Shown one piece after another: positions 4,143 to 8,006 of a DNA stretch of 12,719 nucleotides. Below the pieces are notes generated by a model. It ran no database searches and had not been told where the DNA came from. It was given only the letters and a program-made list of their open reading frames with translations. Each line of letters begins with the position of its first letter. Position 1 is the first letter of the stretch. Source of the DNA: a bacterium (GTDB lineage Bacteria; Hydrothermota; UBA3072; B12-G15); assembly GCA_003646055.1 (NCBI GenBank), contig QNDZ01000030.1, forward strand, positions 1-12,719, given 5' to 3'. Both the position numbers and the translations under genes were made by a program.

Positions 4143-5045
4143 ATGAATCTTTTCAAAATGCCCAGGATTGGACTTGCCCTTGGAGGAGGTTCTGCTAAGG
4201 GCCTTGCACATATAGGGGTGATAAAAGTTTTTGAAGAAGAAGGTATCCCAATAGATGTAATAGCAGGCACAAGTATTGGTTCAATTGTTGGTGGACTGTA
4301 TGCACTGAACCCAGACCCACTGTATCTGGAGAATAAGGCAAGGGTTCTTATTAATTCAGATGCATTTAAGGATTTAAGGCTGGACAAGTTTAACAGGAAC
4401 CAGTCTGGAGGATGGTTTGGGAGGATAAAGTCAAGGCTGAAGGATGGTCTGACCGTTGCAGAATCCCTGATGAAGCCCTCTATTGTAGCAAAAGAGCCAA
4501 CAGAGAGGGTCTTCAAGGAACTTTTTGGTGATAAGGAGTTTTCAGATACAAGGATACCATTTGCATGCATAAGCCTTGACCTTCTCTCAGGCAATGATGT
4601 GATTTTTACAACAGGCCCTTTATGGAAGGCAACAATGGCAAGTTCTGCTATTCCTGGTATATTCCCAAAGGTTGAGTTTGAAAATTATGTTCTTGTGGAT
4701 GGAGGTGTTACTGCAAATGTTCCTATCCAGGCAGCAAGGGCACTTGGAGCAGATATTGTGATAGGTGTGATTCTTGGGAGGCAGTTGAGTCCACCAGGTG
4801 ACCTTTCAAGTGCACTTGAGGTGATACTGAGGAGCGATGAACTTGCAAAGTTCAAATTATTCAGATTAACACTGGAAGAGGCAGACTTCATTATAGATAT
4901 AGAACTCCCTGATATTCACTGGACAGAATTTGGCAGGATTGATGAATTGATACAGAGGGGTGAGGCTGCTGCAAGGTCAGCACTTGAGGGGGTGAGGAAG
5001 ATAACAAAGGGAAGGGGCTTTTTCTCCAGACTGTTCAGGAGGTGA
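4143..5045 (+). CDS. Patatin-like phospholipase (RssA/NTE-type)
   Basis: A 300-aa serine hydrolase of the patatin family, expected to hydrolyse acyl esters of phospholipids with a Ser-Asp dyad. The oxyanion-hole motif GGGSAKG is at residues 14-20, the nucleophile elbow GTSIG at 42-46 (Ser44), and the catalytic Asp186 in DGG (186-188). All catalytic features are intact. There is no signal peptide or membrane segment, so it is probably cytoplasmic; the tail FFSRLFRR is basic and aromatic and might touch the membrane. GGAGGGG lies before the ATG at 4143 with 5-base spacing; a GTG 12 bases upstream overlaps that site and is rejected. The TGA stop is part of a strong ribosome binding site for the next gene, which continues in the same frame, so the two are coupled. 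Its length and lack of extra domains resemble RssA and also the CBASS effector CapV. Confidence 0.9.
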   Translation: MNLFKMPRIGLALGGGSAKGLAHIGVIKVFEEEGIPIDVIAGTSIGSIVGGLYALNPDPLYLENKARVLINSDAFKDLRLDKFNRNQSGGWFGRIKSRLKDGLTVAESLMKPSIVAKEPTERVFKELFGDKEFSDTRIPFACISLDLLSGNDVIFTTGPLWKATMASSAIPGIFPKVEFENYVLVDGGVTANVPIQAARALGADIVIGVILGRQLSPPGDLSSALEVILRSDELAKFKLFRLTLEEADFIIDIELPDIHWTEFGRIDELIQRGEAAARSALEGVRKITKGRGFFSRLFRR

Positions 5046-5051
5046 AACATC
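5037..5051 (+). promoter_or_regulatory. Extended Shine-Dalgarno plus ATC putative start of the GGDEF-ATPase gene
   Basis: AGGAGGTGA (5037-5045) is a 9-base perfect complement of the usual 16S rRNA 3' end and contains the patatin TGA stop. ATC follows at 5049-5051, 6 bases after the GGAGG core. No ATG, GTG or TTG occurs in frame until 5229, by which point the first part of the GGDEF catalytic domain has already been encoded. Confidence 0.65.
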
Positions 5052-8006
5052 CCAGAAACAAATGCACTTGAACCATTAACCCAGGCATTCTCCAAAAAAG
5101 CCCTTCTTAATGACCTTGACGTCCTCATAAGAACAGATAAAAAGTGCTCACTTTTCTTCATAGACATTGATTATTTTAAGTTTATCAATGACCTGTATGG
5201 ACACCTTGAGGGGGATAAAATTCTCAAGATGGTTGCATCCAGAATAAAGGAGTTTCTTCCTGTGGGAGGGAGGATTTACAGGTATGGTGGTGATGAGTTT
5301 GTTGTTATCACTGCTCTCACAGACAGAGAGGAGGTACGAAAGATTGCTGAGGAAATAATCCTTCTGGAGATTGAAGGACTCCAGGTGAAGTACATATCAA
5401 CAAGCGTAGGCATAACAATATTTCCAGAACCAGGGGATACACCTGAAAGTGTTTTGAAGAGGGCTGATTTTACCCTGTTCAGGGCAAAACACGCAGGCAG
5501 GGGAGTTTACCTTTTCCACGACGACAGGATTGAGCAGGAAAGATTCACCCTTGTTGGTAGGAAAGAAGAGTTGAAAACAATGACCAGTATAGTTGATACA
5601 GTTATGAAGGGTGAAGGGTGCATAGTTGAGGTGAATGGTGAGGCAGGGATTGGTAAGACCCGTCTTGTACAGGAGTCTGCTGAACTGTTTTCCAACTGGG
5701 GAGGGCTTGTAATTTCTGCTGGTGGTGTGAGTTTTTCTACGCTTCCACCATTTTATCTCTTTACAACCATCCTGAAAGACATGTACATAAGGAACAGGGA
5801 TTTATTTTTAAGGGTTCTGGAAAACCTGTCTGGTGAATACAGGAGAAGGATAGAGTTTGTGGTTGAGAATAAACTGGATATTGAAAAGGAACCGGGTATT
5901 TTTCAGGACTCTATTTTGAACTTCTTCAGGGTTCTTTCTGTTCTTAATCCTGTAATGCTGATACTTGATGATGTCCAGTGGGCTGATACAAGGAGTATTG
6001 ACCTTATGAACATTCTTTCTTCTGGTATAAGCAGGTTTAAGATGCTCCTCTGTTACATAGTGAGAACTCCGATTTACAACAAAAGGCTTGAATACATATT
6101 GAAACTTTTCCACAGATACCCCAATTTTACAAGAATACAACTTGGTCCATTAAAAGAAGGGGATATGGAAAAACTGGCGCCACTCTTCAAAAGGATGGGG
6201 AAGAATCAACTCAAAAGGATACATAAACTTTCTGGTGGAAATCCTCTTTTTATGGAGCAACTTATAAGTGCACCAGAGATTCTTTTCAGGGGTGTTGATT
6301 ATTTTAAAGAAACCCCTGAATTAACAGGGATTATTGAGGCAAAGATAAAAAGGCTTGATGAGAACTCTGTTCTTGTTCTGAAGATAGTATCTCTCCTTGA
6401 AGAAAGCCCTGATTCGGATTTCCTCTCAAGGGTTTCGGGGATTGATAAGTTCCAGATTGAGGATATTGTGGACAACCTTTCAAAGATTGGACTGTTGCGC
6501 ATAAAGAAGGATACGAAAACATATGAGTTCACCCATGGAATTGTGAAGTGGGCGATACACAACAGGATTCCAGTGCCTGAGAGGAGGGAACTTCATAGGA
6601 GAATTGCCCAGGAGATGGTAAAAAAGTCTCCCAATACAATAAATTCAGTGTTTTCCATTGCCCATCATTTTATTTCAGCAGGGGATAAGAAAAATGCATA
6701 TGAATATACAATCAGGGCAGGGGATATGGCAGAGAGGGTCAAAGGTTACTTTGAGGCATCCAATCTCTATGGTGCTGCAATAGACCTTTTTGATGTTAAT
6801 GATGAGGAGAGAAAGATTCTTGGTGAGAGACTGGTTAATGCCCTCACCGAGAGTGGAATGGGAGAGGAGGCCGTTCAGGGTATAATGAAGGTTCTGCGGG
6901 ATGTGAGAAAGAGGGGTGAGAAGGAGAAGATTGATGGACTCTTGTACAACCTTGCTTATTCATATTACAGGGCAGGGAAACATGACGAACTTCTGAGATT
7001 CAGCGAAAAGGTGCTTGAAGAAATGGATCAGTCTTCAGGTTATTACTGGACAATCAGATTCCTTGTTGCGAGTGCAGTGAATAATGATAAAGATGCTGAT
7101 AGAACCATAGAGATAGGAAAGGCAGGACTGGAATTTTTCAAGGATAAAACTGAATCATTATACAATTATGCCTTTTCCTGCCATTTGATCTCAATAGGAT
7201 ATGTTGCCAAGCAGAGGATTAAGGAATCATTAAAATACAGTAAGAAGGCAATGGAGATATATGGGAAGACAGAAGGTGGTGTTCCTTCATGGATATGGAA
7301 TGACCATGCAGAGGTTTTAATGGCCTCTGGGAATTACAAAGAAGCAGAGAAGTGGTTGAGCAAGACCCTTGAAGCCCATGAGGATATGGGCAACCTGTGG
7401 CTTCTCTCCAGTTACATGATGAACATGGCAATAGTGGAAAGGGAGAGAGAGGAATATGTCCAGTCCAGTATGCTCCTTGAGAAGGCAATTGAATATGCAG
7501 GCATGTGTCAGGTTTTAACTGAACTTGATATTGCAAGGGCTTCAATGGTGGTCAATCGGTTGCTCCAGGAAGGAACTTCAGGATATATATCAGAGGACTT
7601 CAGGAATGAAACAATACTTAATTTCATAGATGTTTACAGGGGTGTTTCGTTAATACAGGAAGAAAAGTTTGAACAGGCTGTCAACATCCTTGTTTCTGTA
7701 TGGAACAGGGAGAAGAAATCAGGTTTCCCCATGATAGTAACCACAGGGATTGTCCTTCCACCCATGAGGATTCTTTTCCTTATAGTGATGGCGTATATTC
7801 TTGATGGTAAAGTTGGGGAGGCAGAGAGGTGGAACAGCATGCTCATGGAGGGTGCAGAACAGGGGGGAGCACATATTTACAGAAAGTATGCAGATTTTCT
7901 TGCAAGGGTTATTAAGGGTGAAAAGCCTTCATTACGTCCTTTAAACCCACTATCATTTTCTCTGGAAAAGAGGCTTGTGTGGTGGATGAAGAAGAAGTTA
8001 AAGTAG
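5049..8006 (+). CDS. GGDEF diguanylate cyclase - STAND/AAA ATPase - TPR signalling protein
   Basis: A 985-aa multidomain protein if started at ATC 5049. Residues 1-160 are a GGDEF domain expected to make c-di-GMP from two GTP: FFIDIDYFKFIND (metal site D39, D41; N47), GHLEGD (D56) and an intact GGDEF at 80-84. The RxxD inhibitory site is absent (PVGG instead). Residues from about 168 form a COG3899-like STAND ATPase: LVGR at 168-171, Walker A GEAGIGKT at 197-204, Walker B LILDDVQWAD at 304-313 and GGNPLF at 396-401, followed by a winged-helix-like segment to about 500. The rest is helical TPR-type repeats, suited to sensing or protein binding. Starting at the first ATG (5229, residue 61) would delete the metal-binding aspartates, so that start is unlikely. 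It follows the patatin gene by 3 bases, and its end overlaps the convergent hydrolase gene by 9 bp. UGA readthrough making one patatin-GGDEF-STAND chain is an alternative. Confidence 0.87.
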   Translation: MPETNALEPLTQAFSKKALLNDLDVLIRTDKKCSLFFIDIDYFKFINDLYGHLEGDKILKMVASRIKEFLPVGGRIYRYGGDEFVVITALTDREEVRKIAEEIILLEIEGLQVKYISTSVGITIFPEPGDTPESVLKRADFTLFRAKHAGRGVYLFHDDRIEQERFTLVGRKEELKTMTSIVDTVMKGEGCIVEVNGEAGIGKTRLVQESAELFSNWGGLVISAGGVSFSTLPPFYLFTTILKDMYIRNRDLFLRVLENLSGEYRRRIEFVVENKLDIEKEPGIFQDSILNFFRVLSVLNPVMLILDDVQWADTRSIDLMNILSSGISRFKMLLCYIVRTPIYNKRLEYILKLFHRYPNFTRIQLGPLKEGDMEKLAPLFKRMGKNQLKRIHKLSGGNPLFMEQLISAPEILFRGVDYFKETPELTGIIEAKIKRLDENSVLVLKIVSLLEESPDSDFLSRVSGIDKFQIEDIVDNLSKIGLLRIKKDTKTYEFTHGIVKWAIHNRIPVPERRELHRRIAQEMVKKSPNTINSVFSIAHHFISAGDKKNAYEYTIRAGDMAERVKGYFEASNLYGAAIDLFDVNDEERKILGERLVNALTESGMGEEAVQGIMKVLRDVRKRGEKEKIDGLLYNLAYSYYRAGKHDELLRFSEKVLEEMDQSSGYYWTIRFLVASAVNNDKDADRTIEIGKAGLEFFKDKTESLYNYAFSCHLISIGYVAKQRIKESLKYSKKAMEIYGKTEGGVPSWIWNDHAEVLMASGNYKEAEKWLSKTLEAHEDMGNLWLLSSYMMNMAIVEREREEYVQSSMLLEKAIEYAGMCQVLTELDIARASMVVNRLLQEGTSGYISEDFRNETILNFIDVYRGVSLIQEEKFEQAVNILVSVWNREKKSGFPMIVTTGIVLPPMRILFLIVMAYILDGKVGEAERWNSMLMEGAEQGGAHIYRKYADFLARVIKGEKPSLRPLNPLSFSLEKRLVWWMKKKLK

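Follow-up and report, generated by a model that had tools for sequence, protein, structure and literature searches.

A GGDEF-ATPase-TPR gene behind a patatin gene in a Hydrothermota bacterium probably starts at an AUC codon

In a 12,719-nucleotide stretch of DNA from a bacterium of the Hydrothermota (the window, by which we mean the whole stretch analysed), a patatin-like phospholipase gene is followed by a gene for a GGDEF-ATPase-TPR protein. This protein is probably made as a separate polypeptide, with its fMet at AUC 5049. The observed basis is a coding N-terminus, a missing canonical start, a Shine-Dalgarno (SD) sequence with its spacing, and further genes of the same anatomy. Starts at AUU, AUC or AUA (AUH) outside infC are already known; this GGDEF gene would be a further case, in a lineage that seems to use them repeatedly. 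The features concerned, in window positions, are:

4143-5045, forward strand: patatin-like phospholipase gene (RssA-like), 300 aa, from ATG 4143 to the stop TGA 5043-5045; Pfam Patatin E 3.3e-32.
5037-5045, forward strand: SD AGGAGGTGA, recognized from its sequence, overlapping patatin's two final Arg codons and its stop.
5049-5051, forward strand: ATC, proposed start codon, chosen on SD spacing, on the distance to the LT of the GGDEF domain and as the sole AUH or CTG before 5127.
5049-8006, forward strand: GGDEF - AAA_16 (STAND-like) - TPR gene, 985 codons plus stop, directly 3' of patatin.
5073-5501, forward strand: GGDEF domain (Pfam), residues 10-152 of the frame counted from 5046, with FFIDID and GGDEF motifs.
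5229-5231, forward strand: ATG, first canonical in-frame start; a protein started here lacks the aspartates of IDID and, in FIND, the N and D.

At the junction the letters read AGG AGG TGA (5043-5045) AAC ATC (5049-5051) CCA GAA ACA. The original prediction held that the patatin frame ends at this TGA and that the same frame stays open beyond it with a complete GGDEF domain that includes FFIDID. Both statements were borne out: the continuing frame runs to a stop that ends at 8006, and its GGDEF match (Pfam E 1.1e-28) covers profile positions 5-159 of 161, which is near full length, with AAA_16 (1.3e-17) and TPR_12 (7.7e-15) matches in the same frame. Reading this frame codon by codon, we found no ATG, GTG or TTG between TGA 5043-5045 and ATG 5229, and the single in-frame CTG before 5229, at 5193, falls within the GGDEF domain, 3' of FFIDID. 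The predicted absence of ATG, GTG, TTG and CTG near the N-terminus therefore holds.

Translation might instead begin at ATG 5229, the first canonical codon, leaving only a C-terminal remnant of the GGDEF domain, or at a near-cognate codon within the frame, for example ATA 5127. An ORF finder limited to ATG, GTG and TTG gives a 925 aa protein from ATG 5229. The region upstream of this ATG, however, scores as coding solely in the GGDEF frame. Scored with a dicodon model whose training set was the genome sample minus the window, positions 5052-5228 reached +20.0 in the GGDEF frame and negative values in the other five frames; both other forward frames also contain stops over this interval, and the coding signal sets in at the codon right after ATC. 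The Pfam match from 5073 means that the protein must begin well before 5229, and together with the frame-specific dicodon signal it marks the stretch before ATG 5229 as coding. A start at 5229 would also remove the catalytic aspartates, as had been predicted: the IDID metal site and FIND are both lost, and D39, D41, N47, D48 and the GGDEF motif are invariant in an alignment of four genes from this genome, the window gene and three paralogues. A start at ATA 5127 would cost the first 26 residues, including the LT that is likewise invariant in the four aligned genes. Initiation at either internal codon is thus extremely unlikely. Gene callers restricted to ATG, GTG and TTG would cut 60 residues from the protein and so delete its catalytic aspartates.

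The GGDEF domain is complete in that its metal-binding Asp residues and GGDEF signature are present, as would be expected of an active diguanylate cyclase. RxxD is the inhibitory site of GGDEF domains and is dispensable for catalysis. The domain lacks it, with PVGG where one paralogue has READ (window 5259-5300), so the usual form of product inhibition would not be expected. A literature search combining GGDEF with STAND returned no paper.

We then compared the position of the proposed start with that in GGDEF relatives. From 36 loci we obtained 19 rows, from which two repeats and one contig-edge row (L006) were dropped. The 16 remaining relatives have their nearest canonical start 5-13 codons ahead of the domain's LT, at 11 codons in six cases. 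ATC 5049 lies 9 codons from LT, within this range, so a protein started there would begin where its relatives begin. All 16 informative relatives have canonical starts, and the AUC start is therefore not a family trait.

Within the frame, ATC 5049 is the only AUH or CTG codon upstream of ATA 5127, which follows 26 codons downstream. The arrangement AGGAGG-TGAAAC-ATC places it 6 nt from the SD core. The spacing of 6 bases given in the original prediction is right if AGGAGG is taken as the reference, and becomes 3 if the whole 9-mer is. Among genes with an SD match of at least 6 bases in the first 633 kb of the genome sample, the gap between GGAGG and the start codon is 4-6 nt in 182 of 224 and exactly 6 nt in 52 of 224. 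The same 633 kb holds 31 copies of AGGAGGTGA, 15 of which have no ATG, GTG or TTG opening an ORF of at least 40 codons at 4-10 nt downstream, and we rejected the 9-mer as proof of a start on this count. The prediction had argued for AUC from the SD: its modal spacing at a gene boundary stands as an argument, while the 9-mer alone is not special. As a base rate, of 4735 SD-like sites inside genes, 548 have an in-frame ATH at a distance of 4-7 nt and 183 have one at exactly 6 nt.

Three further searches around this motif were of less use. A genome-wide count of AGGNGGN6ATH gave 280 occurrences against 203 for the reversed pattern, and was dropped since the control differs in composition. Scanning for AGGAGGTGAN{2,5}ATC found four places, the GGDEF gene included, against two for the control; of the remaining places, two share one sequence close to contig ends, in which a stop follows ATC directly, and one opens only 37 codons. 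In an RNA fold of 5010-5085 the SD can pair with a 5' CUCC, but the fold is equalled or bettered by 191 of 200 shuffles. Separately, L120 (contig 103 of this assembly, G000) and L121 (contig 150) share one stretch, which sits near the start of one contig and at the end of the other, and contigs of the assembly may overlap at their ends.

Two canonical codons outside the frame could in principle serve as starts, GTG 5042 (in the SD) and ATG 5062, with a later frameshift into the GGDEF frame. Both codons exist, but both of their frames end within 9 codons, at stops at 5069 and 5077, and no obvious slippery run was seen by eye. GTG 5042 moreover sits inside the SD, like the misassigned GTG of sigR (PMC5472188). 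We regard a frameshifted product as barely conceivable.

Readthrough of the UGA, or selenocysteine insertion at it, would yield a patatin-GGDEF-ATPase fusion of about 1,290 aa. The two genes do share one frame, for which the chance is 1 in 3, and this UGA is the sole stop between them. UGA is, however, the commonest stop in the genome sample (307 of 657, against 261 TAA and 89 TAG), and here it is covered by the SD. The patatin protein matches NCBIfam RssA at E 1.5e-36, yet remains under the RssA cut-off. Its 22 best non-self matches (E 1.1e-53 or better) have stop-to-stop frames of 265-368 codons, so the 300-aa patatin stops at about the length of its closest relatives. Frames of 600-1,047 codons occur among the weaker matches. 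We fetched eight loci around such matches and judged four, and no GGDEF string occurs in their five long frames (two in L232, one each in L234, L236 and L237; the second L232 frame and L234 were read by eye, the other three by script). Downstream of the nearest patatin relative (G009, 57%) lies not a GGDEF gene but one that looks by eye like a phosphoribosyltransferase. ARAGORN, run on the 44% genome sample and on 30 of 39 tRNA loci, reported no tRNA with a UCA anticodon; the genome is about 81% complete. The frequent use of UGA as a stop and the equal length of the patatin relatives make readthrough unlikely, and overall we consider a fusion protein very improbable. The original preference for AUC over readthrough is thus supported by the family N-terminus, the modal SD spacing, the ordinary UGA and the patatin lengths, as well as by further AUH-like genes.

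These further genes came from a genome screen based on dicodon coding potential and blind to AUH codons. It covered 826,625 of 1,866,734 bases (44%), made up of the window and contigs 1-29, 31-60 and 127, the last added because it carries infC. For 656 genes with an upstream stop within the contig, we looked for a coding excess of at least 12 before every ATG, GTG and TTG. Three of the 656 passed: the GGDEF gene (ATC), a GAF-sigma54-Fis regulator (ATC) and the thymidylate kinase gene tmk (ATA), the identities of the last two being confirmed by Pfam. All three, and infC, have an in-frame AUH 6 nt after an SD core. The contexts are GGGGGG-TAAGGT-ATC for the GAF-sigma54-Fis gene, AGGAGA-AGTAAT-ATA for tmk and AGGAGG-TGCCGG-ATA for infC; in the first two the cores are imperfect and the 6-nt spacing is a reading by eye. 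With a score of 4.9, infC itself fell under the threshold, which indicates that the screen misses short N-terminal extensions and that three of 656 is a lower bound. The three genes compared with relatives are:

G000 contig 33, 8784-10280, reverse strand: GAF-sigma54-Fis regulator gene (L183; relatives L193, L194 and L195).
G000 contig 51, frame 6438-7064, reverse strand: tmk (L221; relatives L240-L253).
G000 contig 127: infC (L122/L231; L148 in the sister species G001), with what appears to be an ATA start in both species.

The sister species keeps the AUH codon in all three. Its infC has ATA in the same SD context, its tmk is 98% identical and retains ATA, and its GAF-sigma54 protein is 91% identical, with ATC retained behind a better SD, GGGAGG-TAAGGT-ATC. 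The apparent start of the GAF-sigma54-Fis gene is ATC in the two species of the genus, and the gene overlaps the end of the one upstream. Judged by eye via this overlapping upstream gene, the more distant relatives G008 and G009 have an ATG one codon downstream of the ATC position, where G000 has CTA and G001 has ATA. The G001 gene also contains an in-frame TTG further on; a start there would leave the protein shorter than its homologues.

For tmk the pattern extends through the class. Seven of ten genomes (G000, G001, G004-G007 and G009) have no ATG, GTG or TTG between the upstream in-frame stop and the FITFEG core, and in those seven an in-frame ATA was seen by eye 4-13 codons before the core. 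The other three have canonical codons, TTG in G003, a distant TTG in G002 and GTG in G008. That the frame of tmk relative to the gene upstream is not constant speaks against a programmed frameshift.

We also weighed whether the GGDEF gene has lost its start codon. A former ATG would then have become ATC by recent mutation, in a strain variant or through assembly error, and the gene would be barely translated or the record would carry a wrong base. A single base separates ATG from ATC, the other GGDEF genes have canonical starts in 16 of 16 informative cases, and the GGDEF-gene locus is present in one assembly only. A contig scan turned up 44 loci, the best of them 40% identical, and no close orthologue. 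Besides the gene itself, nothing better than 1.7e-60 came from searches of 60, 10 and 147 genomes, with at most five candidates per genome scored in the 147-genome search. In the sister species, contigs 35 and 205 end at points matching window 3809 and 10026; the block between these breaks holds patatin, the GGDEF gene, a metallo-hydrolase-like gene and an MscS-like channel gene. Against a loss, 985 codons remain open, the domain motifs are intact and the whole frame is strongly coding. In addition, AUH stands at the start position of three other genes common to two assemblies, which means that AUH starts in the genus are not sequencing errors in general. For the GGDEF gene itself, this conservation shows only that AUH initiation in the genus is credible. 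We consider loss of the start codon unlikely.

The AUC start would fit a mechanism of coupled re-initiation. Ribosomes translating patatin would terminate at UGA 5043-5045, within the SD AGGAGGUGA, and the 30S subunit would restart 3 nt beyond the stop, at AUC 5049. The initiator tRNA (anticodon CAU) would pair with the first two bases of AUC and the first residue would be fMet, a strong SD at the proper distance offsetting the poor third base. Published work implies that AUH codons would be poor starts because of the mismatch between their third base and the CAU anticodon, and because IF3 rejects complexes of this kind. Discrimination by IF3 against the AUC start would give a low output that varies with IF3 and with patatin translation. 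Given an SD that overlaps the patatin stop and an AUC 3 nt on, coupled re-initiation at low output would be the natural expectation. We infer AUC initiation itself, the coupling, the IF3 sensitivity and the low expression. In E. coli, extra IF3 reduces re-initiation (PMC2268962), and by analogy with sigR (PMC5472188) repression of the GGDEF gene by IF3 would be expected.

Several published systems resemble the proposed start. The original prediction named IF3 genes as the known class with AUU or AUC starts, which is too narrow, since pncA, ccpN, citZ and cvfC1 (AUU/AUA) and sigR (GUC) have been published (PMC13398362, PMC13009471, PMC5472188). The GGDEF gene shares with infC (AUU, AUC or AUA; here ATA) the AUH codon, a long SD, the 6-nt spacing and the lack of a nearby canonical start. 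However, infC is the autoregulated IF3 gene, whereas ours is a signalling gene that immediately follows one for a phospholipase. In S. aureus, Ribo-Ret mapping placed AUA starts at infC, ccpN and citZ and an AUU start at cvfC1, with extended SDs at the infC, cvfC1 and ccpN sites (PMC13009471). Reporters with AUH starts gave about 10% of AUG in poor medium, and ccpN up to 30% in rich medium (PMC13009471). The ccpN, citZ and cvfC1 cases are, like ours, AUH starts outside infC, but in other genes, and that text does not use the word AUC (PMC13009471).

The Streptomyces gene sigR, repressed by IF3, has its GUC start 3' of an SD with a misleading GTG (PMC5472188). Both sigR and the GGDEF gene are signalling genes in which the GTG inside the AGGAGGTG SD is not the start and the true start would be a C-ending codon downstream, although that codon is GUC in sigR and AUC here (PMC5472188). 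In Borrelia pncA (BBE22), which starts at AUU, databases list a truncated protein without catalytic residues and the true start is an AUH codon, the situation proposed for the GGDEF gene (PMC13398362). The S. aureus sites were mapped (PMC13009471), the sigR start was located by stop-codon scanning and Edman degradation (PMC5472188), and the pncA start is backed by structure and biochemistry (PMC13398362), whereas the GGDEF start is predicted from sequence.

The wider point beyond the GGDEF gene is the apparently repeated occurrence of AUH starts in one lineage, tmk included. If such starts do recur, as seems to be the case here, the IF3 level could influence several genes besides infC. It is possible, if doubtful, that AUA and AUC are regular minor start codons outside infC in this lineage, and that tmk, the GAF-sigma54 gene, the GGDEF-ATPase gene and infC form an IF3-tuned set that connects c-di-GMP signalling and nucleotide supply with the state of translation. 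The ATG/GTG/TTG-restricted callers that would truncate the GGDEF protein would also misplace the starts of tmk, infC and the sigma-54 regulator.

Finally, 30 infC loci were processed by script, which left the N-terminus unplaced in 10 and misplaced it in one, and we quote a few clear cases. Some other infC genes of the phylum have ATT (L128, L142) or ATC (L141) after the SD. The same three genes also carry an in-frame GTG within or before the SD.
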